Source of the DNA: Candidatus Hydrogenedentota bacterium | Lineage (GTDB): Bacteria; Hydrogenedentota; Hydrogenedentia; Hydrogenedentales; JAJRTN01 | Reading direction: 5' to 3' | Length of the DNA: 32,345 nucleotides | NCBI GenBank assembly: GCA_024278275.1 | Contig: JAJRTN010000185.1 | Coordinates: 1-32,345, forward strand | In this document: positions 1 through 32,054 of the stretch, in pieces | Layout of the letters: each line of letters begins with the position of its first letter | Numbering within the stretch: position 1 is the first letter of the stretch | The notes under the pieces: model-generated | Databases searched by the model: none | The model's input: the letters and a program-made list of their open reading frames with translations, nothing else | What the model was told of the DNA's origin: nothing | Translations under genes and position numbers: made by a program

Positions 1-743
1 AGCGCTTTACCCAGCCGACCCGCGTTCTCCGTGCCCGCCTTCCGAAGCGAGTCCAGGGTTCCATCGAGTTCCTTCTCATTCGATGCCTCGCCGAAGACGG
101 TCAGCGTATGTCCCTCGAAGGCGCCTTCCGCGCCGCGAACACCCGGCGCCAGAACGAGATTCTTTCCCGCCAGACGGGCCAGGCGAAACAGGGCGGCCGC
201 CTCTTCTTTCTCGGCGAGGAGCGCCTCCGGCGGTCCCACGGCTTCCAGGCGAAGCCGAACCTGGTCCCCCGACCGTGCCAGCAGCAATTGGCCCGCCTTC
301 GAAAGCAGCCCGCTTCCCCTGCCCCGCTCGTCGCTTTCCGTTTCTTTACACGCGCGAACACCGCGCAGGGAACGTAAGAAGGAAACGGCCCCGCCTTTGC
401 CCGCGCCTGGCTTCGCTTGTTCCGGTTCCCTTTTCTTGTCGGGCAGGCGCACCGTAAGGGTATGCAGGCCGCGGGCGATGGTGAAGCGTTTCAGTTCTTC
501 CTCGTGCCTGGGCGCGGGGAGGATGGCCTTTGTCGCACGCAGCCATTCGAGTTCCCCCACGACCTCCGCCAGTTCCCTGGGGTCGTGTTTTCCCGACAAC
601 AGGTGGTAGATGCGGTTCGCCGGGGTGTGGGGATAATGGTCCAGCACGTCCCATGAGATGGGGTCGCACTCGAAACAGAAGCACGTCTCCGTGTCGATGA
701 CATAGCGTTTGCCATCGTGGGTATAGCGGTGGAGGCGTTCCAT
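1..743 (-). CDS. Peptide-maturase-like protein (SPASM/radical SAM type N-terminus), cut by window edge
   Basis: The reading frame stays open from ATG at 743 to the window edge, giving 247 visible residues. The ATG overlaps the permease stop as TGATG. Residues 1-90 resemble the N-terminal segment of SPASM-type radical SAM peptide maturases: a short beta hairpin (YVIDTETCFCFEC), then SWDVLDHY, then a charged helix ending ELEWLRATKAIL. Residues 92-100 (GLHTLTVRL) sit where such enzymes normally lead into the CX3CX2C iron-sulfur motif. Here the sequence continues PDKKREPEQ, with no such motif. The only visible cysteines are at 21, 23, 26 and 132. Either the domain is degenerate or the cluster motif lies beyond the edge. 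As the last visible gene of the peptide operon it could be a modifying enzyme or a non-catalytic partner. Family assignment is by eye and moderate. Confidence 0.5.
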   Translation of the reverse strand, partial: MERLHRYTHDGKRYVIDTETCFCFECDPISWDVLDHYPHTPANRIYHLLSGKHDPRELAEVVGELEWLRATKAILPAPRHEEELKRFTIARGLHTLTVRLPDKKREPEQAKPGAGKGGAVSFLRSLRGVRACKETESDERGRGSGLLSKAGQLLLARSGDQVRLRLEAVGPPEALLAEKEEAAALFRLARLAGKNLVLAPGVRGAEGAFEGHTLTVFGEASNEKELDGTLDSLRKAGTENAGRLGKA

Positions 744-1585
744 CAATAGGCCCCCAGGGTGCCCCGCGCCCGGCTCCAGTTCTCCATGTACCGGAAGCAG
801 GCCACGCCGATGCTCGTCCAAACGATGCAACTCAGCACCAGGTAGAAGAAAGAAGGATGTTGCAGGAGCGGCAGCACCGTGCCATCGGACAGCAAATGAT
901 CCTTGATGAGCACATGCTTCAGGCAAATCGCCGCATCGGTGATGGGAAGGGCGTGCATTAAGGAACGCACCACGGCACCCTGGTGGAGGATGTCTTCGTT
1001 GGCGTAGATGGCGAGCCCGAAAAGCGCCATGCGAATGAGCACGGCCACCTGTCCGACCTGCTTGAAAACCAGCACCAACCCACCCATCATAAAGCCAAAA
1101 CCCAGGAGGTTGATGAAGGTCAGGGTCAAGAGGAGCAACACTTCGCCGGGGTAGAAGTGAAGCGTTTCCCCAAAGGTGAGCGACACCATGTACACCATGA
1201 AAGCCGACGAGGCGATAGTCATGGTGGCGCTCACGATGGACCGGGCCAGGAAGTTGGTGATAAGACCGTGGGGACTCATGCAAAGCTGTTCCAGGATACC
1301 CGTGCGCGCCATCCCCTGGAGGCCTTGGGTGAACATGCCCACCACGCCGAAAGCGAACATGCCGATGATGAATCCGAGGACGAAATTGGTGGCCGCCGCC
1401 GCATCCTCGAAGTTTCGGCTCATGGCCTGCTCCACCTGGTCCGAGCTGGCCATGAAACCCAGGACCAGCACCACCAGCATGCCATAACCGATGAACAGCC
1501 CGGTGATCGTGCGGAACCAGTACCGGCGCATGATAATCCACGACCGGACGATTTCCGCTTTCATCACCAAGAAAAAACCAAACAT
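743..1585 (-). CDS. ABC-2 type transporter permease
   Basis: Hydrophobic protein of about 280 residues with roughly six membrane segments, for example RTITGLFIGYGMLVVLVLGF near the N-terminus, FVLGFIIGMFAFGVVGMF, a long segment around LLLLTLTFINLLGFGFMMGG and a C-terminal YLVLSCIVWTSIGVACF. This is the usual size and layout of ABC-2 export permeases, and the ATPase gene lies immediately upstream. A GTG directly abuts the ATPase stop at 1597, but the ATG at 1585 has a GGAG about 8 bases before it and is preferred. The stop overlaps the downstream maturase-like start by one base. In this operon the likely role is peptide export or self-protection, which is inference from context. Confidence 0.85.
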   Translation of the reverse strand: MFGFFLVMKAEIVRSWIIMRRYWFRTITGLFIGYGMLVVLVLGFMASSDQVEQAMSRNFEDAAAATNFVLGFIIGMFAFGVVGMFTQGLQGMARTGILEQLCMSPHGLITNFLARSIVSATMTIASSAFMVYMVSLTFGETLHFYPGEVLLLLTLTFINLLGFGFMMGGLVLVFKQVGQVAVLIRMALFGLAIYANEDILHQGAVVRSLMHALPITDAAICLKHVLIKDHLLSDGTVLPLLQHPSFFYLVLSCIVWTSIGVACFRYMENWSRARGTLGAY

Positions 1586-1597
1586 GCCATACTCCAC

Positions 1598-2617
1598 TCA
1601 GATCGTACTGGATGTCAGTTGGAGGAACACCGTTTCCAGGTTCTGTTGACGCTGGTCGATGCCGCGCAGGAGCACGCCTTCCTCGCGCAGGAGACCCACC
1701 ACGCCGTAGAGGGCGGCGGACCGGGCCTCCATGCCCGCGTCGAGGCGAACGATCAGCATGGGGCCGTCGGCGCTCAACTCGTTGCTCGCCTCCATCACGC
1801 CCGGCAGGTCCCGCACCGGGTCAAGACTCGGCAGGCGGTCCACGCGGAAGATGAAGGTACGGTCGGAGAAAAGTTCCAGCAGCTCCGATGTCTTCTTGCA
1901 GGCCACCAGCCGGCCCTTGTCGATGATGCCGATGCGGTCGCACAGTTCCTGCGCCACGTGCATGTCGTGGGTGGTCACCACCACCGACTTGCCGAGATCC
2001 CGCGTCATCTCGATGATCTTGTCCTTGATGGCGCGGCTGCTCTGCACGTCCAGGCCCGTGGTCGGCTCGTCGAGAAGGAGCACCTTGGGATCGGCGATGA
2101 GAGCGATACAGATGGCCAGCTTCTGTTTCTGGCCCCGTGAAAGCAGGCGGACCTGGACGTTTTTCTTGTCTTTCAGACCGATGAAATCGAGCAACTCGTG
2201 GGCGCGCCGTTTAAGCACCCGGCCCGTCACGTTCTTGAGGTTGCCGTAGTAGGCCAGGTTTTCCAGCGGCGTGAGCGGCCAGATGGTGGTGCGCGTGCCT
2301 TCGAGCACCACGCCCAGACGGCGCAACACCTGCTTGCGCTGCCGTTCCACGCTCAGCCCATCGACGCGCACCTCGCCCCGGTCGGGCCGCACCAGGCCGG
2401 AGATCATCTTCACCGTGGTGGTTTTGCCGGCGCCGTTGGGTCCCAGGAGTCCGAAGATCTCACCCGGCCGAACGGCAAAACTGACCGCCTGCGCCGCGTG
2501 GACCCGTTGCTTGCGGTACAGCCGGCGCCGCTGCGTGTCCTCGTCCACCTTGAAAAAATGGTGCAATCGGAATGTCTTTTGGACACCGTCGAGTTCTACC
2601 AGGAATTCCCCGCTCAT
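1598..2617 (-). CDS. ABC transporter ATP-binding protein
   Basis: 339-residue ABC ATPase. Walker A GPNGAGKT is at 59-66, the signature LSRGQKQK at 159-166, Walker B with D-loop VLLLDEPTTGLD at 179-190 and the switch histidine in TTHD at 215-218. About 100 residues follow the nucleotide-binding domain, as in exporters of the NatA/DrrA kind where a C-terminal extension contacts the permease. An insertion of about 20 charged residues (DEDTQRRRLYRKQR) sits between the first strand and Walker A. The ATG overlaps the protease stop as ATGA, and the permease follows directly, so the two should form one transporter. The substrate is not shown; the tandem small peptides of the same operon are the obvious candidates. 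Confidence 0.93.
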   Translation of the reverse strand: MSGEFLVELDGVQKTFRLHHFFKVDEDTQRRRLYRKQRVHAAQAVSFAVRPGEIFGLLGPNGAGKTTTVKMISGLVRPDRGEVRVDGLSVERQRKQVLRRLGVVLEGTRTTIWPLTPLENLAYYGNLKNVTGRVLKRRAHELLDFIGLKDKKNVQVRLLSRGQKQKLAICIALIADPKVLLLDEPTTGLDVQSSRAIKDKIIEMTRDLGKSVVVTTHDMHVAQELCDRIGIIDKGRLVACKKTSELLELFSDRTFIFRVDRLPSLDPVRDLPGVMEASNELSADGPMLIVRLDAGMEARSAALYGVVGLLREEGVLLRGIDQRQQNLETVFLQLTSSTI

Positions 2618-3324
2618 GAGTGCTCCGAGGATGGATGGCCATAGGCCGATTCAATGGCCGCCAATGCCTGCGCTTCGTTACCCAATTCCCGGACCTTGTC
2701 CAGGAATTCGATAAACACAATTTCGAGATTGCGCATGGTGTGTATCACGACCACCAGGCTCAGGCTGTGCGTCCAATGATACAGGATGCCCAGCAGGAGG
2801 GAAAACGCCGCGAATTCCACGCTGTCCCAAAAAGCGTTGCGGAAAAAGTGGCCGTGGGTCACGCAGAACACCGCGGCCACCACCAGGATCGCGAGAACGG
2901 GGCGTCCCCATTGCGCCGCCAACAGGGGTTGCGCCGCCGCCCGGTAGATCACCTCCTCCGCAATGCTCACCGCCAGGAAACGGAAGATGAGCTGCGGGCT
3001 TTCGGTCAGGAAGCGGCCCAGGGCGGGGAAATCGAGGAAATGGCCGAGGGCATCGCGCAACCCCCGGTGAACCGCCGAAAGGGACAAAAGGAATATCACG
3101 TGCCCCGCCACCAGGCCGGCGCCGATACTGACGGGGGAAACAAGGTCGCGGTTGAGCGCCCCGTCCTGAACCGCGAGGTAACAGGCCACCACGAACAGGG
3201 GGGTCTGCAAGACGTAGTCGAGGGGATGGCTCCCTTTCCGGGGTGCGGTATCCCGGGCGCGCAGATTAGCCGCGACGGCGTGGAGGGCATAAGCGGCCAG
3301 CAAGAGCAGAAAGAGAATGCTCAC
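2614..3324 (-). CDS. CPBP family intramembrane metalloprotease
   Basis: 236-residue membrane protein with the CPBP (Abi/CAAX-protease-like) motifs: EEVIYR at 123-128 (EExxxR), a second motif with His157 in THGHFF, and HTMRN at 195-199. Hydrophobic segments occur at 1-18, 42-52, 64-82, 111-122, 143-157 and 171-195. Members are intramembrane proteases. In bacteriocin clusters they often act in immunity or leader removal, and either role would fit here as inference. The start is GTG, overlapping the upstream GNAT stop as GTGA, and the stop overlaps the ABC ATPase start as ATGA, so translation is probably coupled. The motif residues look intact. Confidence 0.85.
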   Translation of the reverse strand: MSILFLLLLAAYALHAVAANLRARDTAPRKGSHPLDYVLQTPLFVVACYLAVQDGALNRDLVSPVSIGAGLVAGHVIFLLSLSAVHRGLRDALGHFLDFPALGRFLTESPQLIFRFLAVSIAEEVIYRAAAQPLLAAQWGRPVLAILVVAAVFCVTHGHFFRNAFWDSVEFAAFSLLLGILYHWTHSLSLVVVIHTMRNLEIVFIEFLDKVRELGNEAQALAAIESAYGHPSSEHS

Positions 3325-3944
3325 GGGGAAGACTCCGCGCCCGCCAGGCCCGCGATCATGGCTTGCAGACGCACCCCTTCCGCCGCGCGGGTGTAACGTT
3401 CGCGGAGCGCTTCAAACTCGCTTCGCAGGAGACCGTAACCGTAGACATCGTGGAGTTTGCCGTCACGGACAACGTGATCCCGCAACGTCAGTTCGCGCCG
3501 TGCGCCGGTTTTCTCGAAAATGCGCCATGACGGCGTGTTAAAGGCATAGATGAAGGCCGAAACGCGGTGGAGATTCAACTCGTCAAAGCAATACTCCAAC
3601 GCCCGGTACACCGATATGGCCGCCACCATGCCGCTCCGGTGCTTCTCGTCGCCCAGGTAGAGATCCAGGGAACAGCTCCGGTTGCGCCAACTGATACTTT
3701 GCAGCGACAGCATGCCGATGGGCCCCGATTCCTTCGAGTCGATGAGGAGGTATATACCGCCCGGCATGGTATGGCCCGCGGCGCGACCCAGCATTCCCAC
3801 GATCTGATCACGAATTTGCCGGGGCGAACGGGCGGGGTCGCCATAGAGGAAATGCTGGAAATCGGGGTGCTCCATCCAGGCCACGACCGTATCCAGGTCG
3901 TCACGTTCGGCCCGCCGCAAAAAGGTATCCGTTGAAAATCCCAC
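3321..3944 (-). CDS. GNAT family N-acetyltransferase (RimJ/RimL-like)
   Basis: 207 residues with the RimJ/RimL-type GNAT fold order. The N-terminus FLRRAERDDLDTVVAWMEHP is followed by GPIGMLSLQSISWRNRSCSL (beta 3-4), then LYLGDEKHRSGMVAAISVY, where the acetyl-CoA loop and helix lie. The C-terminal part NLHRVSAFIYAFNTPSWRIF, then EKTGARRELTLRDHVVRDGK, is the usual end of this subfamily. The acetyl-CoA loop is not a perfect Q/RxxGxG/A, so the call is by overall pattern. It follows another GNAT by 3 bases and its stop overlaps the CPBP start. Two adjacent acetyltransferases in a peptide-export operon could acylate the peptides or detoxify them for the producer; neither is shown. Confidence 0.8.
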   Translation of the reverse strand: MGFSTDTFLRRAERDDLDTVVAWMEHPDFQHFLYGDPARSPRQIRDQIVGMLGRAAGHTMPGGIYLLIDSKESGPIGMLSLQSISWRNRSCSLDLYLGDEKHRSGMVAAISVYRALEYCFDELNLHRVSAFIYAFNTPSWRIFEKTGARRELTLRDHVVRDGKLHDVYGYGLLRSEFEALRERYTRAAEGVRLQAMIAGLAGAESSP

Positions 3945-3947
3945 GCC

Positions 3948-4520
3948 TTACTCCGGTCGCCTCGGTGCCTGCACGCCCTCGCCCGGCCGCGCAAAACGGG
4001 TCAGGGTCTCCATATCGTACCAACGTCCCGCCGTGAAAAGCACCTGCCGCTGCACACCGTCACTCTCGAAGCCGTGGGCCGTCAAGGCGTCTCGAAGGCT
4101 CTCCTCGCCCTCAAGACAGTGACCCAGGATTTTCCGAAGTCCCATCCGTCCGTAACCCCGCGCCAGGATAAACGCCAAAGCTTCAGCGGCCAGCGGACTC
4201 CCAAAGGCGGCATCATCGTCCAGGAGGAAAACCAGGTCGGCAAAACCCGCCTCCTGGTTGGCGCCCCGCAGGCTGCAAAAGCCGCGCACCACGCCCGTCA
4301 GGTCTTCAATGGTGTAAAAGCTGCCCTGCAAACCGTCCTTGCGGGCCAGCAGTTCCTCCAACTCTGCCGCGGTAGGCAACAGGGGCTCGCGGTGCTGATC
4401 CAGCAAGGCGGCCCGGGGGCGCCTGGCCTGGTAGAACCGGTGGAGAAAGGGCGCGTCGTCGGGTTCCGCGCCGCGTATGAAGGCATGATTACCCGCGATC
4501 ACGTTGGGTTCCCACGGCAA
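3948..4520 (-). CDS. GNAT family N-acetyltransferase, divergent
   Basis: About 190 residues with a GNAT-like pattern: HAFIRGAEPDDAPFLHRFYQ near the start, FYTIEDLTGVVRGFCSLRGA, AGFADLVFLLDDDAAFGSPL, AEALAFILARGYGRMGLRKI and the C-terminal segment AHGFESDGVQRQVLFTAGRW. The start is uncertain. The frame runs open back to the stop of the fifth small peptide without any ATG, so initiation must be at TTG 4520 or the GTG at 4502, neither with a strong ribosome site. The 93 bases between peptide 5 and this gene otherwise hold nothing recognisable. Sequence similarity to the next GNAT is low, so this is probably a pair of distinct enzymes rather than a recent duplication. Confidence 0.72.
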   Translation of the reverse strand: MPWEPNVIAGNHAFIRGAEPDDAPFLHRFYQARRPRAALLDQHREPLLPTAAELEELLARKDGLQGSFYTIEDLTGVVRGFCSLRGANQEAGFADLVFLLDDDAAFGSPLAAEALAFILARGYGRMGLRKILGHCLEGEESLRDALTAHGFESDGVQRQVLFTAGRWYDMETLTRFARPGEGVQAPRRPE

Positions 4521-4613: not shown

Positions 4614-4733
4614 CTACAGATTGAGTTCCGCCTTTTTGTCCTGGAAAAACTGGCCGAAGGCGCGACTGAGCGCTCCCCGGAAATCAGACAGGGCACTGGC
4701 CCGAACCGGTGTGATGGGTCGAATGTGTTTCAT
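4614..4733 (-). CDS. Small peptide 5 of tandem precursor family (39 aa)
   Basis: Starts MKHIRPITPVRASAL, preceded by AAGGAA about 9 bases before ATG. The first 14 residues align without gaps to the other four peptides (Met1, His3, Ile4, Pro6, Ile7, Thr8, Ala14). From residue 14 it is closely related to peptide 4: AL[ST]D[FL], an amphipathic stretch with ALSRAFGQFF, then a DKK/AKK motif near the C-terminus. Both are 39 residues. This suggests a recent duplication with diversified C-termini. No Cys, and a single Ser-rich position, so lanthionine-type chemistry is unlikely. Proposed role: precursor with a shared leader and variable core, inferred from the exporter, protease and maturase-like genes downstream. 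Confidence 0.7.
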   Translation of the reverse strand: MKHIRPITPVRASALSDFRGALSRAFGQFFQDKKAELNL

Positions 4734-4845
4734 GGAAATTCCTTGCTTTCCCGCCATGCGTTCCACGCCCGCCCTGGCGTGACAACATGCGCTCCACGCC
4801 CAAGCGGCCATACCGAAGACGGTTCATGGCCAGGCTTTGGTGATG

Positions 4846-4965
4846 TCAGACGCCGAAGCTGTTCTTCTTGGCAAACCGGAAATCGAGCCAGGCACGCCAC
4901 ACGGCATCCCAAAGATCAGTCAGGGCATCGGCGCGAGCGACGGTCAGGGGTTTAATGTGCTTCAT
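4846..4965 (-). CDS. Small peptide 4 of tandem precursor family (39 aa)
   Basis: Starts MKHIKPLTVARADAL with AAGGAG about 10 bases before ATG. It shares the 14-residue N-terminal pattern and continues as a Trp-rich amphipathic segment (LWDAVWRAWLDFRF) followed by AKKNSFGV. Three Trp in nine residues are striking for modification or membrane action. 112 bases separate it from peptide 5. That gap holds a direct repeat GGCGTGGA[GA]CGCATG (minus strand) but no further convincing member. Closest relative is peptide 5, position by position after Ala14. Confidence 0.7.
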   Translation of the reverse strand: MKHIKPLTVARADALTDLWDAVWRAWLDFRFAKKNSFGV

Positions 4966-5032
4966 TCGGTGAACTCCTTGTGGTGTCTCGCAAAACATGC
5001 AACGACCGGCACATTGGCCGCGCCGGTCCATC

Positions 5033-5197
5033 CTACCCCGAGTCCGTACCCGTATCCGGCACGGGGTTGTTATCGGCCTTGTGCTGGAACAAGGGGATGC
5101 TCACACTGATGATGTCGCTGATAAAGGACAGTTTGACATCCGGGGGGATACTGGCCGCCCTGTCCGGACACCGGGTGATGCAATGCAAGCGCTTCAT
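5033..5197 (-). CDS. Small peptide 3 of tandem precursor family (54 aa)
   Basis: Starts MKRLHCITRCPDRAA with AGGAG about 10 bases upstream. The N-terminal pattern matches the family (Leu4, Ile7, Thr8, Pro11, Ala14). The C-terminal half has DVKLSFISDIISVSIPLF, then a polar Asn/Asp/Pro-rich tail. It pairs with peptide 2: both are 54 residues and share VKL[CS]F[LI] and I[LI]xxxxI[LP]. Two cysteines (6 and 10) fall inside the conserved leader part rather than the variable region. Confidence 0.65.
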   Translation of the reverse strand: MKRLHCITRCPDRAASIPPDVKLSFISDIISVSIPLFQHKADNNPVPDTGTDSG

Positions 5198-5228
5198 GAA
5201 GCGTAACTCCTGTAATGGCGACACCCCG

Positions 5229-5393
5229 TCAAACCGTGGTATCCGGATTTTTAGAACTATCGAGAGGCAGTATGAAATTGGTCAGGATCTGGATCAAAAA
5301 GCAGAGCTTCACCTGCAAATCACTCTGAAAATTATCGCAGATGCCCGTCTGCGCTTTCATGGGGGTCCTGGAAACGGTGTTCAAATGCTTCAT
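5229..5393 (-). CDS. Small peptide 2 of tandem precursor family (54 aa)
   Basis: Starts MKHLNTVSRTPMKAQ. Two consecutive ATGs occur (5396 and 5393); the second aligns with the family and lies 9 bases after an AGGGG ribosome site. The C-terminal part LQVKLCFLIQILTNFILPL is strongly hydrophobic and followed by a polar SSKNPDTTV tail. It is similar to peptide 3 in length and in the VKLxF block. The stop is 31 bases before the start of peptide 3. Local base composition is visibly richer in A and T than in the downstream enzyme genes. Confidence 0.65.
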   Translation of the reverse strand: MKHLNTVSRTPMKAQTGICDNFQSDLQVKLCFLIQILTNFILPLDSSKNPDTTV

Positions 5394-5448
5394 CATGTCA
5401 TTCCCCTGAAGGCCCTTCAAGCGATTGACGAAGGGCTGTTGTTTCAAG

Positions 5449-5595
5449 TCACGCGGAGGTGCCGCCCGCGTTGTCCTTGGCAAGCAAAGCGCTGCCGATC
5501 ACACCCAGGATGCTGGCGATCACGGAAAGGATCTGGCCGATAGAGGCATCCTGCGCAACCGCGGGTTTGCGTGAAATCGGTTTCAGATACATCAT
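5449..5595 (-). CDS. Small peptide 1 of tandem precursor family (48 aa)
   Basis: First gene after the promoter at 5655-5683. Two ATGs in a row (5595 and 5592) follow a GAGAGG ribosome site. The first gives the better family alignment, MMYLKPISRKPAVAQ, with Leu4, Pro6, Ile7, Ser8, Pro11 and Ala14. The rest is a membrane-like segment, IGQILSVIASILGVIGSALL, with small residues spaced in the GxxxA/GxxxG manner, and ends AKDNAGGTSA. It could be an exported membrane-active peptide or a modified precursor. Being promoter-proximal it should be the most transcribed member. Confidence 0.68.
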   Translation of the reverse strand: MMYLKPISRKPAVAQDASIGQILSVIASILGVIGSALLAKDNAGGTSA

Positions 5596-5890: not shown

Positions 5891-8800
5891 TCAAGGAGCG
5901 ACGCCCCTTTTCTCCCGCGCCCGGCGCAGATTGGCCAGGGCGTTGAGATAGGCCGTGTTGTGGGGCAGCCACACCTCGTTGGGCTCGAAGTCCGGAATGT
6001 CGAGACCACGCAGGTCAAGGTAGGGGCGGTCGTCTTTCACACCCCGCCAGGTCACGCCGTTCACAACGCTCCCCGGCACGGCACCGCGCGGCACGCCCGC
6101 GAAGGTGTAGCGGTGGTGGTAGGTGGGCAGGAAAGCGCTTCCACACCCCTCCACGAGACTGAGGTCGAAGGGGTTGTTGCCCAATTCCCAGTTGAATTGG
6201 TCGTAAACGAAGGCAAGATACTTCGGGTCCGGCGCATACTGGTAGGCCATGGCCACCGTGTTGGCCCCGTAGAGCAGATCGCGGCTCGTACCGACGTGCC
6301 AGCCGCCCTGCCCCTCGGGCGTGCCGAAGAAATTGGGCCGCGCCGCCGTGCCGCCCATGGGCATGACACCAAAAGGATTCGTGCTTCGCACCAGTATCCC
6401 GTCGGCCCTGGCCACCAGCGCGTCGCGCAACTCCGCCGCGTGATCCTCGCCGAAGAGGCTGTCGTAAAGACGGATCGAATCGGCCACGTCCGGGTCGGGG
6501 CCCGGAAACAGCTCCCTGGCGAGGGCCGCGTATCGCTCTTCGCCCGTCGCCACGAAAAGATCGACCGCCGCCGAAAACGAAAGCGGCCCGCGCCGGTCGT
6601 TTTTCAGCGCCCACTGCATCGCCCGGTCCGCCGCGGCGATCCACGGGGCCTTGTCATCCACGAAACGCGCGATGCGCGCCATGGCCGCCAGGTGGTTGGA
6701 CGAATCCCGGCCCGTGTCCTCCGGCCCGTCCAGGGGGCGTTCATCGCCGGTGCCCGGAATGTTGTCCGTCTCCAGTTCGGGCGGTCCCCAGAAACCGTAG
6801 CCCGAGGTGATGCCGCCGAAGGCCGAACCGTCCGGCGCGATCATCCGGCGCGAATGGTCGCCGCCCCACAGGATTTCGTCGAGAAAATCGCTCCGCCCGT
6901 TTCCGTCCTCGTCCTGCCCATCGAAGGCCGCTTTGGCGATGCTGTAGGCCCGCGCCAGGCCCTGCACATAGGGCGCATTGTGATAGGTGTTGTAATCCCC
7001 CGCGTCGTGCCAGCCGCCCCACAGTTTATACTGTCGTTTCCCGTCGGCGCTGCGTGCGTCGTCAAGATGGCATGCGTCGTGGAAACCGGGAATCGCCATA
7101 CCGCAACGCTGGTAGTAAAAGAAGCGGTACGCCATGCGCGAGGTTTTTCGCCAAAGCAGGTTCTTCCCGACCTCAAAGGGCCACGACAGCGCCGTACGAC
7201 CGTCCAGCGTGATACGCGCACGATACCGGCCGGGCGTGTCAAACGCGGAGAAGTCGCCCCGCCAGTATTCATGGCCCCAATCGTTGCCGTAGGCACCCGT
7301 CATCCGGCCCGCATACACCAGGGGTGCGGCGAACACATTCCTGCCGTCTTCACTAACGATCTCGAAGGTCGCGGTTTCGGCCTTGAAATTGCTCTGCGCG
7401 GTGAAGCGTTTCGGCGCGCCCACGTCGTAGCCCACCTGGTTGATTAACGGCTTGAGCTCGCGCCGTCGCGCGAAGGTGCCCGTCACCCGCGCATCATCCC
7501 ACCAGGCCGTCTTTTCCCCACCCGCCACGCAGAGCAGCCGCAGCCAACGCGCGCCCCGCAGCGGCCGCGCGCCCTGGAGAACATGGTTTGCCCAGCCGTC
7601 GGGGTCCGGGGCCACGGCTTGGAGCACATCCTCCCGAAGCACGCCCGTCAGCCCCTCCCAGCGCAGGAGGGCCGTGCCGGTTCCTGGACCGCGGAAGGCG
7701 ATGGCGGCCTCCACGAAGCGCAGTTCGGGCGTCACCTCCATGGGCGTCGTGGCCAGGGCGAAACCGTCCGTCGCCCCCGACACCCGCAACGAGGACACGC
7801 CGCTCCGTTTCACTTCACTATCCAGCACCCACTCGCCGGTCCCCGTCCCGGTGGGCGCCCAGCCACGGGGCTGCTGTCGGCGCGCGCCCTGGAAAGGCTT
7901 ATGCTCTGCTCCGCCCGGAGCCACCTTGCCGTTTTCAAAGCCGCCGTGGGCAAAGAGCGGCAGACGTTCGACAATCGTGTCGTTCGCCGTGACGGCCCCG
8001 AAGGACGCACCCGATTGCGCCGCGTCATGACGCCGGCTCGGCCAGGGCATCCGGGCGGGATCATACCGGCCGCCAAGGGTCAGGCAACGAAGGATCTTAT
8101 CACTGCCGCCAAAGAGGATGTCGGTCTTGCCGTCCCCATCCACGTCGGTGATGGTGGCCGCGTACATCAACCGCAAATCGACCTTGAAACGCCACTCCAG
8201 CAGCCCGGCCGCGTCCAGGCAGTACAGGTAATGATCACCCCCCGCCACCAGCACCTCGATCGCGCCATCGCCGTCCACGTCTCCCAGCGACGGGGCCGCG
8301 TGGGTGCGCTTGCCGATGGGAAACACCCACCGCGTCTCGCCGTCGCTCGTCAGGCAATACACATACCCGAGGGCATCGGCCACCACGATTTCCGCCACGC
8401 CGTCCTGGTCCAGGTCGCCCACGGAAAGGCACGAAGCGGGGTACACGTCCGCCCCGCCCACGGTGGCTGCGCGCCAGACCCGCGCCCCCGTCCGCGCGTC
8501 AAAGCGGTGGACCGCGTTGTCGGCGGCGGACTGGCAATACAACTCGGGCGCGCCGTCCCCGTCGGCGTCCGCGATGACCACCGACGTCTTGAAGCTGTCG
8601 CCGCTCTGGAAGCGCCAGCGGAGGGTGCCGTCGCCATTGACGCACAAGGGGCCGGACATGGACGCCGCGAAAAGCTCCGGACGCCCATCCCCATCCACGT
8701 CCGCGGCCGCCATGGGGGCCACGATGTGCAAACCGCCCGCCGCCTCGGACGCGTCATAACGCCAAAGCAACGCACCTTGAGCATCCAGGGCGACAATACC

Positions 8801-9265
8801 CTCGTGCTCCGTGCCCGCCACGACTTCGTCGGCGCCGTCACCGTTCAGGTCGCACCACAGCACGCCCCCCCACTCGATACCACCGATTTGCTTCCGCCAC
8901 AGCGCCGTGCCGCTTTCCGCGTCCACGCAGGCCAGCCACCCGTCGCCGTTGCCCACCGCCAGCGTGCCCTTACCCGGGCGCGCGGTGAAGCTCAGGGCTG
9001 CCGACGACGTGAGGCGTTTCGACCAGTGGCCGTCATAAACCCACAACAACCGTCCCCGCGCATCGAGACAACGCAGCCGCCGTACCTCGCTGTCGCTCAA
9101 GATGGTTTCCCGTCCCGGCGGCGGCGCCACGTCCGCCACCAGGGGCGGCGCATAGAGATTCCCCTGGGCCTTGTAGGCCCACACGATATCGGGCTCCGCC
9201 CCCGCGACGGCCAGGGCTGCCGTGCCCGCCAGGAAAAACACCCCCATCAGCATCGTTCTGGTCAT
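5891..9265 (-). CDS. Secreted GH9-family glycoside hydrolase with N-terminal FG-GAP/PQQ-like beta-propeller
   Basis: 1124 residues. A signal peptide (about 1-23, ending AVAGA) is followed by a propeller to about residue 430, with repeated DxDxDG calcium-loop units such as DVDGDGRPEL, DADGDGAPEL, DLDQDGVAEI, DVDGDGAIEV and DVDGDGKTDI. A beta-sandwich, probably carbohydrate-binding, spans about 430-615. Next comes the Ig-like domain typical of GH9 (LINQVGYDVGAPKRF, about 620-715), then the GH9 catalytic domain. GGWHDAGDY carries the expected catalytic Asp pair (Asp754 and Asp757), and the C-terminal NEVWLPHNTAYLNALA carries the likely acid Glu1097. GH9 enzymes are mostly endoglucanases, with some glucosaminidases; the substrate here is unknown. 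The ATG has AAGGAG about 10 bases upstream. Most GH9 enzymes carry a cellulose module or dockerin instead of a propeller, so this architecture is unusual. Confidence 0.88.
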   Translation of the reverse strand: MTRTMLMGVFFLAGTAALAVAGAEPDIVWAYKAQGNLYAPPLVADVAPPPGRETILSDSEVRRLRCLDARGRLLWVYDGHWSKRLTSSAALSFTARPGKGTLAVGNGDGWLACVDAESGTALWRKQIGGIEWGGVLWCDLNGDGADEVVAGTEHEGIVALDAQGALLWRYDASEAAGGLHIVAPMAAADVDGDGRPELFAASMSGPLCVNGDGTLRWRFQSGDSFKTSVVIADADGDGAPELYCQSAADNAVHRFDARTGARVWRAATVGGADVYPASCLSVGDLDQDGVAEIVVADALGYVYCLTSDGETRWVFPIGKRTHAAPSLGDVDGDGAIEVLVAGGDHYLYCLDAAGLLEWRFKVDLRLMYAATITDVDGDGKTDILFGGSDKILRCLTLGGRYDPARMPWPSRRHDAAQSGASFGAVTANDTIVERLPLFAHGGFENGKVAPGGAEHKPFQGARRQQPRGWAPTGTGTGEWVLDSEVKRSGVSSLRVSGATDGFALATTPMEVTPELRFVEAAIAFRGPGTGTALLRWEGLTGVLREDVLQAVAPDPDGWANHVLQGARPLRGARWLRLLCVAGGEKTAWWDDARVTGTFARRRELKPLINQVGYDVGAPKRFTAQSNFKAETATFEIVSEDGRNVFAAPLVYAGRMTGAYGNDWGHEYWRGDFSAFDTPGRYRARITLDGRTALSWPFEVGKNLLWRKTSRMAYRFFYYQRCGMAIPGFHDACHLDDARSADGKRQYKLWGGWHDAGDYNTYHNAPYVQGLARAYSIAKAAFDGQDEDGNGRSDFLDEILWGGDHSRRMIAPDGSAFGGITSGYGFWGPPELETDNIPGTGDERPLDGPEDTGRDSSNHLAAMARIARFVDDKAPWIAAADRAMQWALKNDRRGPLSFSAAVDLFVATGEERYAALARELFPGPDPDVADSIRLYDSLFGEDHAAELRDALVARADGILVRSTNPFGVMPMGGTAARPNFFGTPEGQGGWHVGTSRDLLYGANTVAMAYQYAPDPKYLAFVYDQFNWELGNNPFDLSLVEGCGSAFLPTYHHRYTFAGVPRGAVPGSVVNGVTWRGVKDDRPYLDLRGLDIPDFEPNEVWLPHNTAYLNALANLRRAREKRGVAP

Positions 9266-9821: not shown

Positions 9822-10721
9822 CTACGCGGTTTGGAAGCGGCGCCGCACCAAGGTCAATCCACCAAGCCCCAGCCCCATGAGCGTCATTGTGGCGGGTTCG
9901 GGAACCACGGGCTGCGGGTTGAAGGGATCGCCTGCGCGCGCCCAAGCGCCGGTTTCGTAACCAACGCCACTGACACCAACACGCAGTTCATACGTCAATT
10001 CGACGGATTCGCCCGCGCCCAGAACACCCAGGCTTACCGTATCACTCACGTCACCAAAGTTATAGGCAATTTCGTTCCCGTCATCGGTACGGGTATAGGC
10101 AAGGGCTGTTCCCGTTTGTGTGAAGGATTCACTACCCTCTCCTCCGACCAGTACCGCCCCCGACCGCCAAAGCTCTCCCCCCGTATTCGTGGAAATGACG
10201 ATCTCATAGAAGGCCGTCATGGCTCCGGGGTCCGTGTCGTAAACCCAGGCATAATCCCATATCCCCAAAGATACACCCGTGATGAGGAACGTAAAATCGT
10301 AGGCTTGGGCCGAACCGGAAGTATTCGCGAAACTGTCCGTCCAAATGACTTCGGCGTCAAAATCCGAAAAACTGCCGACGGCATCAAGGTACCATGCCCG
10401 GGCCGCAAGCCTTCCCGTGTCATCGGCCGACGCGGTGGCCTCGCCCACGATGCTGCCGCCTCCACCGCCCCCGATGGCGCTGGCAGTCGGTAAAAAACCA
10501 CCGCCGTCGGGGTACTGTACGTGGGAATACACGTAACCTGACACATCCGTATCAGGATCCGAAGCGGAATGGTTCGCCGGATTCGCAGGATAATCGTCCG
10601 CGCTATCCCAAACCTCATACTGTGCATTCGAGTCCATGGTCAGTGCGACCGCCGATAATTGGAAAGCAATCAACGCCACCACGAGCATCCCCGCCCATCC
10701 TGTCCGCTCCAAAATCCTCAT
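9822..10721 (-). CDS. PEP-CTERM sorting-domain surface protein
   Basis: 299 residues from the ATG at 10721, chosen because AAGGAGA precedes it and a signal peptide follows (MRILERTGWAGML then VVALIAFQLSAVA). The body is Gly/Ser/Asp-rich and beta-like with Gly repeats (GGGGGS), as in extracellular secreted proteins. The C-terminus has VPEP at 273-276, a hydrophobic stretch TMTLMGLGLGGLTLV and RRR, which is the PEP-CTERM signal recognised by exosortase. No exosortase is in the window, so it must be encoded elsewhere. The function of the body is not recognisable; it may be an exopolysaccharide-matrix protein. A strong terminator follows. Confidence 0.88.
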   Translation of the reverse strand: MRILERTGWAGMLVVALIAFQLSAVALTMDSNAQYEVWDSADDYPANPANHSASDPDTDVSGYVYSHVQYPDGGGFLPTASAIGGGGGGSIVGEATASADDTGRLAARAWYLDAVGSFSDFDAEVIWTDSFANTSGSAQAYDFTFLITGVSLGIWDYAWVYDTDPGAMTAFYEIVISTNTGGELWRSGAVLVGGEGSESFTQTGTALAYTRTDDGNEIAYNFGDVSDTVSLGVLGAGESVELTYELRVGVSGVGYETGAWARAGDPFNPQPVVPEPATMTLMGLGLGGLTLVRRRFQTA

Positions 10722-11087
10722 GACAAACAATCTCCTTTCCGAAATCGTTGCCGCCGCGACGCTTAACAACACGTATCGATTACAGGCTCCCTCTGTCACA
10801 CACAAGGCAAATCAGCTTAATGACAGCATATCACATGCCAATTTATATTACGTGTTGTAAACCATTTTATAATCATGTTTTAAAATATCTTTATCATAAT
10901 TGGCATGTTTGTCATTACTTCGACAAAGAAACATTTTCTTGCCAATCCTGAATAACTTATGCCGTTCGAGGTGTCAACATATGCCGGTACTGGAGTTTAG
11001 ATGGAGGAAACACACAGGGTGCTGAACCAACTGGGAAATGGGGGAACCGACACGGACGTCGATGCAATCGGACATCCCAAGGCCTCT
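10722..11087. promoter_or_regulatory. AT-rich upstream region of the PEP-CTERM gene with an 11-bp inverted repeat
   Basis: About 10800-10980 is much richer in A and T than its surroundings. ACATGCCAATT (10833-10843) and AATTGGCATGT (10898-10908) are perfect inverted copies 54 bases apart, a candidate regulator site. No single -35/-10 pair is convincing. No gene is visible in the rest. Confidence 0.45.
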
Positions 11088-29948: not shown

Positions 29949-31043
29949 TCATTTCCCCGATTTTCTTCTGTTATCTTCCTTGCACAGCATCTGGCAGTTG
30001 GCCGCGTTGGTTTTTCCGCCCTCGTGCCACGGCTTGACGTGATCGCCTTCCATCTCTTCAAACGCAAACTTCTTCTTGCACTTCACGCAGACTCCATTTT
30101 GCCTCTCGTATGCTGTTCTTTTCATGTTCAGCGTGAATGCTCGAATGTTGAGATGTCTTTCTTCCCCGTCCAGTACATAGGGATAGATTCCGGACTTCTT
30201 CGTGACATCATCATCCATCATCAGCTCAGCAACGTGCTTCTCCAGCTTGTCCGTATCAAACTCTTTGTCCTTGAACTGATTGTAGAGAGCCCCCCAATCC
30301 ACTCCCTTCATCTCTCGCCGATGCTCCGGGAAGGTCGCCTTAACCCAAGCGATGACCTGCTGGAAATACGCCCAAAGTGGCGTTGCACTCTCATCCTGCT
30401 GATGTTTCGACATGTACTCTTCGATCGTGCCCGCCGACGTTGCGCCCGCGTGCCATTTGATCGCCGTTTCCAGATATTCCTGCCGGATCGCAGTGCCTTT
30501 GAGATAGTCGCTCGCCAGTCCATACGCTGGGCAACCCGTCTTGCTGAAATAGCGTTTGGCATCGGCAGTCCATGGGCCAGCATACACCGCGTTGCGCAAT
30601 TCCTGATTGGTGTGTTCCTCGCCAGCGATGTTGATGGTTTTGAACCAGTCCAACTTTTCGCTGTCAGTCCCGGAGCAGAAATAGACCATCAGCTTGTAAT
30701 CGAGAATCTGTTTCTGCTGGTCGTCTTGCAGGTTGTGGAACGCCAGCCCGGTGATGGAGAAGTCCCCGTTGACGTATTGGCACATTGAAAGCGTGCGCTG
30801 TTGTCCATCGATCACTTCGTAATCGCCGTCATTGCGCACTGCCCAGTACATTACGTTCAGCGGGAAGTCCTTGCGAACGCTATCAATGACCGCATCCCGC
30901 TGCTTGTCCTTGTAGATGAATTCCCGCTGGTACGGCGGACGAATGTCGAGCTTTCCGCCATAGGCAACGACTCCTTGTTCCGCGTTGTCGAGGAAGCCCT
31001 CAGTTAGCTTCTCGATGGTGATTTCTTTGAGTTCGATCTTCAT
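29949..31043 (-). CDS. DUF262-HNH nuclease
   Basis: 364 residues. The N-terminal DUF262 domain (ParB-like fold) has RPPYQREFIY at 35-44 and IDGQQR at 78-83, the putative nucleotide-binding motif. The C-terminal HNH domain has CVKC (Cys319, Cys322), GDHVKPWHEGG (Asp334-His335, His340), and Asn349 with Cys354 in NCQMLCKEDN. This combination occurs in modification-dependent or defence nucleases of the GmrSD type and in other phage-defence systems. It starts the base after the methyltransferase stop (TAG then ATG), so the two are coupled and probably form a restriction-modification pair. The base composition is poorer in G and C than that of the window's other genes, fitting acquisition by transfer. 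Confidence 0.88.
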   Translation of the reverse strand: MKIELKEITIEKLTEGFLDNAEQGVVAYGGKLDIRPPYQREFIYKDKQRDAVIDSVRKDFPLNVMYWAVRNDGDYEVIDGQQRTLSMCQYVNGDFSITGLAFHNLQDDQQKQILDYKLMVYFCSGTDSEKLDWFKTINIAGEEHTNQELRNAVYAGPWTADAKRYFSKTGCPAYGLASDYLKGTAIRQEYLETAIKWHAGATSAGTIEEYMSKHQQDESATPLWAYFQQVIAWVKATFPEHRREMKGVDWGALYNQFKDKEFDTDKLEKHVAELMMDDDVTKKSGIYPYVLDGEERHLNIRAFTLNMKRTAYERQNGVCVKCKKKFAFEEMEGDHVKPWHEGGKTNAANCQMLCKEDNRRKSGK

Positions 31044-32054
31044 CTACTTCGCTCTCTTTCGGATTAGAATCCGTGCGTAGCACCGCTTTCCCTTCACGTA
31101 GCCGCGGTCGGTCTTCCCCGTCCAACTCCGCTTGATCAACTCGGGTAGCAAGCCCTGTTTCACTTCGTAATCCGAACCAATTATCTCAAACTGTTCGGGA
31201 TTGTGGTATGCAAGGAAGGTTACAGGCACTCCCATGACGCCATCGTAATCACCCGGTATATCCTTGTATCGTGACACCTCAATCGCGTTGTAGTTGTCGT
31301 AATGTGGATATTCCTTCGGGCCATACTCCCTTACGGTAATCAACTCCTCGTGACGCTTTTGGATATCTAGGTTGGTGAACCAACAAGCGTTTCCGAAGCT
31401 GCGCCAATTCGTTCCGTCCTCGCCTCTCCAACTTCTCACCGCTCGCATTTCGTAATGATCCGGGACGACGAAGGCGACGGCATGAGTGTAGCCCAGCCAC
31501 ATCTTGTTTTCCTTGATCAACCCGAAAATCTCCTTGTAGGTGATCGCGTTCTGATTCCCGATGATGAGGAACTTCTTCTTGTATTTCACCAACTGCTCGA
31601 CGTACTCCCGAAACAACGAGAACGGTGGATTGGTAACGACGATGTCCGCTTGCTTGAGCAGCTTGACGCATTCCTCACTGCGAAAATCGCCGTCGCCTTT
31701 TAACTTGTGAATGCCGATTTCGTCCGGGTCAGGGACGCGGTTATCGTTCTTGTCGCCGTCGTATTCGAGGTAGATTCCACTCTCCGCCGTGTGCTGGCTG
31801 AACAGATCGGCATCGCAGTTCTTGTAGCAGGTGGTAATCAGCTTTTTTAGCTTCAGCTTCTCGAAGTTGTGCGAGAAGTAATGAAAGAAATTGCTGACCT
31901 TGGGATCATCGCAGTTGCACAGGACGGTCTTGTTCTTGAAATGCTTCGTGTAATGCCGTAGCTCCTTCTCGATATCGGAAAGCTGCGTGTAAAACTCATC
32001 CTGTTTCGTCGCCTTCGCGGCGTGCAGACTTCGATTCAACGGCTTCTTCGTCAT
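31044..32054 (-). CDS. EcoRI-type adenine-specific DNA methyltransferase
   Basis: 336 residues. The N-terminal FYTQLSDIEKELRHYTKHFK and KTVLCNCDDPKVSNFFHYFS are hallmarks of the EcoRI methyltransferase family (PF13651), where the CNCDDP segment is the SAM-binding motif. The adenine-methyltransferase motif is NPPF at 142-145 (IVVTNPPFSLFREYV). Other family blocks are FLIIGNQNAITYKEIFGLIK, WFTNLDIQKRHEEL and DGVMGVPVTFLAYHNPEQFE. It should methylate adenine N6 in a short palindromic site. EcoRI itself is paired with a PD-(D/E)XK nuclease; here the neighbour is a DUF262-HNH protein. AAGGGAAG precedes the ATG. No promoter is seen between the cassette end and this start. Confidence 0.9.
   Translation of the reverse strand: MTKKPLNRSLHAAKATKQDEFYTQLSDIEKELRHYTKHFKNKTVLCNCDDPKVSNFFHYFSHNFEKLKLKKLITTCYKNCDADLFSQHTAESGIYLEYDGDKNDNRVPDPDEIGIHKLKGDGDFRSEECVKLLKQADIVVTNPPFSLFREYVEQLVKYKKKFLIIGNQNAITYKEIFGLIKENKMWLGYTHAVAFVVPDHYEMRAVRSWRGEDGTNWRSFGNACWFTNLDIQKRHEELITVREYGPKEYPHYDNYNAIEVSRYKDIPGDYDGVMGVPVTFLAYHNPEQFEIIGSDYEVKQGLLPELIKRSWTGKTDRGYVKGKRCYARILIRKRAK

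Follow-up and report, generated by a model that had tools for sequence, protein, structure and literature searches.

Five small open reading frames lie one after another on the minus strand of a contig from Candidatus Hydrogenedentota. They occupy positions 4614-5595 and are 39-54 codons long each. The window analyzed here is the whole of that contig (G000:C158), 32,345 nucleotides in all. Are such short frames genes at all, do they belong to a peptide maturation pathway, and does anything modify their products? The initial annotation read them as precursors of ribosomally made modified peptides (RiPPs). On balance we favor the view that they encode the precursors for a peptide export system that is RiPP-like and leader-directed. 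This work defines a small-protein family, so far unnamed, of an uncultured phylum and links it with a conserved operon. Such a system would escape gene callers that drop frames of fewer than 60 codons, as well as genome miners who look for active radical-SAM motifs.

Evidence that the small frames are genes

The five frames fall into four subfamilies:

5449..5595, minus strand: peptide 1, subfamily A, 48 aa; leader, then a hydrophobic helix-like core, GQIL..VIA.IL.VIG.AL.AKD
5229..5393, minus strand: peptide 2, subfamily B, 54 aa; leader, then IC...SD.Q..LCF...L..F.LP
5033..5197, minus strand: peptide 3, subfamily C, 54 aa; leader, then PP[DE]VKL[ST]F...IPLF..K..NP
4846..4965, minus strand: peptide 4, subfamily D, 39 aa; leader, then ADALTDLWDAVWRAWLDFRFAKKN, an aromatic amphipathic core
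4614..4733, minus strand: peptide 5, second copy of subfamily D, 39 aa

All five begin, without gaps, with the pattern M..[IL]..[ILV][ST]..[PR]..A. The window has 1027 ATGs on its two strands and exactly five of them, those of peptides 1-5, start a frame that fits this strict pattern; in 60 dinucleotide-matched simulations the mean was 0.05 and the maximum 1. Five consecutive minus-strand frames with a common 14-residue start are present as originally described. A looser form of the pattern was found 88 times in 44.8 kb lying immediately upstream of the conserved cassette described below (36 loci, the window included) and 11 times in 619 kb of other sequence. An SD-like 4-mer precedes 78 of 85 of these looser-pattern frames, compared with 19% of all ATGs.

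The codon statistics tell us whether the frames are read. Among the listed pairs that are at least 60% identical and allow an estimate of dS, peptide dN/dS lies between about 0.07 and 0.24, and in subfamily D the nucleotide changes at codon positions 1, 2 and 3 number 603, 499 and 1487; the identity threshold somewhat biases both measures. The excess at third positions together with the low dN/dS indicates that the small frames are translated and under constraint. Chance frames are ruled out by the leader enrichment, the SD sites and these statistics taken together.

Four conserved cores

Each of subfamilies A-D is conserved across the phylum, and they recur in one order, A-B-C-D. Peptides 4 and 5 represent the same type in two copies. 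Homologous small frames in related genomes, on which the initial annotation had staked its reading, thus do recur. No NCBIfam model matches any of peptides 1-5 and no Pfam model matches peptides 4 and 5, so it is fair to speak of a new precursor family. Cysteine is scarce: the precursors have four at most and usually none to two, with two invariant in the subfamily B alignment and almost always none in D.

The C-termini had been described as completely different between sub-groups and as the variable cores that are a hallmark of RiPPs. The sub-groups are indeed distinct. They do not vary freely, since they form four phylum-conserved subfamilies with peptides 4 and 5 of the same type, and the hallmark itself does not hold because the cores within each subfamily are conserved phylum-wide. 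From the alignments, this conservation points to a fixed multi-peptide set more than to a natural product that diversifies.

The cassette downstream of the peptides

The peptides are followed by a conserved run of genes:

3948..4520, minus strand: GNAT2, GNAT fold with an unrecognizable P-loop (Pfam PF13302, E 1e-5); start codon uncertain
3321..3944, minus strand: GNAT1, SpeG/RimL-like GNAT fold (Pfam PF13302, E 1.2e-18)
2614..3324, minus strand: CPBP (Rce1-like) intramembrane protease (PF02517, E 4e-13)
1598..2617, minus strand: ABC ATPase, DrrA/NatA-like (PF00005, E 6.5e-31)
743..1597, minus strand: ABC-2 type permease (weak match to PF12698), kept in the cassette
3..743, minus strand: N-terminal 247 aa of a fusion of RRE, pseudo-radical-SAM, SPASM remnant and GNAT, cut by the contig end

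The order GNAT2-GNAT1-CPBP-ATPase-permease recurs in the fetched loci of relatives; the exceptions are loci where a contig or fetched stretch ends or one gene went undetected. A second GNAT1-like copy occurs in three loci. Neighboring cassette genes in the window either overlap by a few bases or lie a few bases apart, an arrangement seen in translationally coupled operons. An exporter and a protease had been claimed beside the peptides, and both are there, as an ABC ATPase/permease pair and the CPBP protein.

The ATPase has a close orthologue (at least 61% identity) in 36 of the 40 genomes of the same order. It gave only ABC_tran and generic AAA matches, and a C39 peptidase domain was not found in the exporter. 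We considered a phage-defence system and rejected it, since the only PADLOC hits were to generic ATPase motifs in the ABC protein. In the CPBP protein the motifs EExxxR, FxxxH and HxxR are invariant (E123, E124, R128, F153, H157, H195 and R198) and, by analogy, it is likely the leader peptidase of these peptides.

GNAT1 has a SpeG-like fold, is 52-75% identical across the phylum and keeps 40 invariant alignment columns. The canonical acyl-CoA P-loop, Q/R-x-x-G-x-G/A, is absent from GNAT2 and from GNAT3, the C-terminal domain of the fusion, and its glycines are mostly replaced in GNAT1. Judged from these motifs, acyl-CoA use by the three GNAT domains is doubtful.

A maturase relative without the radical-SAM motif

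The frame directly after the permease runs off the window. The initial annotation missed this gene because the window ends inside it. The remainder is on contig G000:C23 (L136:4554-3250), which shares an overlap with our contig. Full-length relatives consist of an RRE region, a barrel, a SPASM-like part and the C-terminal GNAT. NCBIfam returned the SCIFF, QhpD (TIGR03906) and Nif11 maturase models, all well below their cut-offs. A profile of 19 fusion sequences matches the structure of CteB over residues 4-433 (E 8e-44), covering RRE, barrel and SPASM part, and its C-terminus matches RimL-type GNATs. The AlphaFold model (mean pLDDT 81) is also nearest to CteB (Foldseek TM 0.71 on target). The closest solved relative is therefore a ranthipeptide maturase.

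The RRE region can be aligned with that of CteB and is present in 19 of 19 sequences. The radical-SAM motif CX3CX2C is absent from all 19; at the position of CNLRCKYC in CteB there is no conserved Cys. The AuxI ligands are lost as well, YPC having become YPS and CSGGC having become CGGGx. Four Cys of the SPASM part are invariant (C385, C388, C394 and C417 of the locus L045 protein), spaced CX2CX5CX22C. In AhbD proteins without the full SPASM motif, CX2CX5CX20-38C is what remains (PMC10452713). We infer from the sequences that AuxII is the only Fe-S site the fusion retains. Three RRE cysteines without a counterpart in CteB (Cys 19, 21 and 24, CxC..C) are invariant or nearly so. The window's own protein shows the same pattern of retention and loss as its relatives.

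A maturase-like gene had been claimed beside the peptides. The RRE-bearing fusion, with a RiPP maturase as its nearest solved relative, is encoded there, but its radical-SAM motif is lost. The claim that the products are modified is unsupported, given the missing CX3CX2C and the want of a canonical P-loop in three GNAT domains. The peptide-handling proteins derive from modifying enzymes and, judged by their motifs, seem no longer to have the catalytic parts. The fusion is a natural case of a RiPP maturase without its catalytic cluster that is still under selection with its predicted leader-binding domain, and it lets the roles of such domains beyond catalysis be probed.

No active radical-SAM partner is conserved upstream of the locus. 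A few genomes do have intact radical-SAM/SPASM genes (CNLACRYCYG; L130:4454-7149, L132:3560-6210 and L133:4491-6011), and these adjoin a Cys/Asp-repeat protein rather than the leaders studied here. The repeat protein, about 400 aa and rich in Cys and Asp, lies directly beside the maturase in L130 and L132, and a similar one is found in L131. This is a candidate for a separate large-substrate radical-SAM system.

Occurrence and descent

The fusion is found in 62 of 68 genomes of the phylum and in 36 of the 38 of good quality. Peptide D is found in 54 of the 68 and peptide B in 33, with family f5 nearly lacking B, so the peptide set is not fixed everywhere. Peptide D never occurs without the fusion (p = 3e-5, kinship ignored); eight genomes have the fusion with no peptide D detected. 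Among 318 genomes outside the phylum neither peptide D nor a full-length fusion was found, the weak fusion matches there covering the SPASM part only, and a scan of genome contigs beyond the phylum likewise gave partial SPASM matches and no full-length fusion. The 51 named loci are nearly all from Candidatus Hydrogenedentota; the one labelled Nitrospiraceae and the two labelled 'uncultured bacterium' are probably assemblies from this phylum too, mislabelled or unassigned. Such near-universal presence is more suggestive of a core trait than of an optional weapon.

In the tree of three cassette proteins, five of the seven testable families are clades (f3, f4, f7, f9 and f10). The other two, f5 and f11, are not because f4 falls within f5 and f1 within f11. 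The tree fits mostly vertical descent. In several genera of family f10 the peptide array has moved from the cassette to a place beside a different gene, its order kept; in those genera the functional link between array and cassette is based on their co-occurrence.

Comparison with known systems

Two general features of a RiPP system are present: ribosomal precursors with a conserved N-terminal leader and a distinct core, and an RRE encoded with them (19 of 19 sequences) for which leader binding is predicted. The CPBP protein with its intact residues and the ABC pair may be the protease and exporter of these peptides. We call the system RiPP-like, yet it lacks a defining feature of every specific RiPP class against which it was tested.

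CteB and the SCIFF peptides (TIGR03974; PDB 5wgg, 5why) give the best sequence and fold match, sharing the RRE, a partial TIM barrel and the SPASM layout. A ranthipeptide maturase has CX3CX2C, whereas the fusion lacks it in the 19 aligned sequences, has lost the AuxI ligands and has in addition a C-terminal GNAT and the RRE CxC..C. SCIFF precursors carry six Cys in a short core, unlike ours. The sporulation killing factor operon skfABCEFGH also resembles our locus, with a small precursor, an RRE-bearing radical-SAM-family protein, the putative protease SkfC and the export pair SkfE/F (PMC8172795). However, SkfB is an active radical-SAM enzyme with a Twitch domain, there is one precursor rather than four types, and there are no GNATs (PMC8172795). 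The combination of an active radical-SAM sactisynthase with a core Cys, which marks SKF-type sactipeptides, is not found here.

In the selidamides and other GNAT-acylated RiPPs (nostolysamide NpuN, goadvionins), GNAT-fold proteins are encoded beside leader-bearing precursors, as they are here (PMC13060382). NpuN, in contrast, has a recognizable P-loop in one GNAT domain, and the members of this group described are lanthipeptides or bear Nif11 or NHLP leaders (PMC13060382); neither leader was found by NCBIfam in peptides 1-5 or by Pfam in peptides 4 and 5. AhbD of non-methanogenic archaea has also lost the other SPASM ligands and kept only CX2CX5CX20-38C, but it retains CX3CX2C and belongs to the haem synthases (PMC10452713). 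The GG leader and C39-peptidase ABC exporter of class II bacteriocins are missing; our leader ends in Ala. No published account of the system was found in the literature searched, which reached few subscription journals. As far as these searches reach, the peptide system is real, conserved and undescribed.

What the system may do

In CteB, a known RRE protein, the bound leader takes the form of a strand (PMC6231123). The leader shared by our peptides, MKHIKxIS..P..A, would by analogy bind in the same way to the fusion's RRE domain, with the hydrophobic residues 4 and 7 as likely contacts. The fusion and the two stand-alone GNAT-fold proteins would then handle, or perhaps modify, the precursor. 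CPBP may cut near the invariant Ala14, and the ABC pair would export the cores, in outline following the plan of the skf operon. Because the four core types are passed on together in a set order (A-B-C-D), they probably act jointly, as a multi-peptide product that is secreted or associated with the envelope.

Since the maturation enzymes seem catalytically degenerate, there may be no modification step. We tentatively propose a pseudoenzyme pathway, near-universal in the phylum, in which an RRE-bearing radical-SAM protein without its SAM cluster but with one Fe-S site, and three GNAT domains no longer able to bind acyl-CoA, would serve as leader-binding chaperones, delivering a fixed set of four peptide types to CPBP and the ABC exporter. 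We would put this particular proposal at rather less than an even chance.

One alternative to our favored view is an acylated, lipopeptide-like RiPP. An active GNAT would acylate the conserved C-terminal core Lys or the new N-terminus, as in selidamides and goadvionins. There is something to be said for this: one operon holds three GNAT domains, subfamilies A, B and D keep the Lys always or almost always, GNAT1 is strongly conserved with its SpeG-like fold, and the GNATs of known RiPPs acylate Lys or Orn side chains or N-termini (PMC13060382). We nevertheless think it unlikely, as the P-loop is absent from GNAT2 and GNAT3 and mostly lost from GNAT1, and the peptides match no Nif11 or NHLP leader. 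GNAT-acylated RiPPs with a pseudo-radical-SAM fusion are not known to us.

Two other ideas seem still less probable. The peptides could be an unmodified multi-peptide bacteriocin or surfactant-like set, with the GNAT-fold and pseudo-radical-SAM proteins as chaperones or immunity factors. Hydrophobic and amphipathic cores agree with this, as do an ABC-2 exporter, a CPBP protein and an operon without a clearly active modifying enzyme. It would be unusual, though, for antagonistic peptides to be near-universal in a phylum, mostly vertically inherited and so strongly conserved in their cores; nor is there a visible double-glycine leader, and no C39 peptidase domain turned up in the exporter. The other idea, in our opinion equally improbable, is that the product is a protein assembly: in a periplasmic or envelope complex the peptides would serve as small subunits, and their export would resemble that of the quinohemoprotein amine dehydrogenase gamma subunit. 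Four co-inherited, ordered and conserved types would suit such a complex, and the fusion does match the QhpD model TIGR03906, if well below cut-off; against this, no partner enzyme gene is conserved beside the array, and the sole recurrent upstream genes resemble glutamate synthase subunits.

Other genes near the locus

The glutamate synthase-like subunit genes lie upstream of the cassette in about 10 genomes (L013, L015, L016, L017, L018, L022, L028, L034, L039 and L041). The upstream gene of the window is different. Adjoining the peptide array on the minus strand (5891-9265) is a protein of 1124 aa with beta-propeller/FG-GAP repeats and a glycosyl hydrolase family 9 domain. Another minus-strand gene (9822-10805) encodes a protein whose C-terminus, VPEPATMTLMGLGLGGLTLVRRRFQTA, resembles a PEP-CTERM sorting signal. 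On contig G000:C23, convergent to the remainder of the fusion gene, L136:2-3193 encodes a large protein that by reading has three carrier-like repeats (DLGIDSIKRVEIL) and a ketoreductase-like region, and so looks like a PUFA-type synthase. Near the far end of the window (29949-32054, minus strand), two adjacent genes read as an HNH-type nuclease-like protein and an adenine-specific methyltransferase-like protein are a possible restriction-modification pair.
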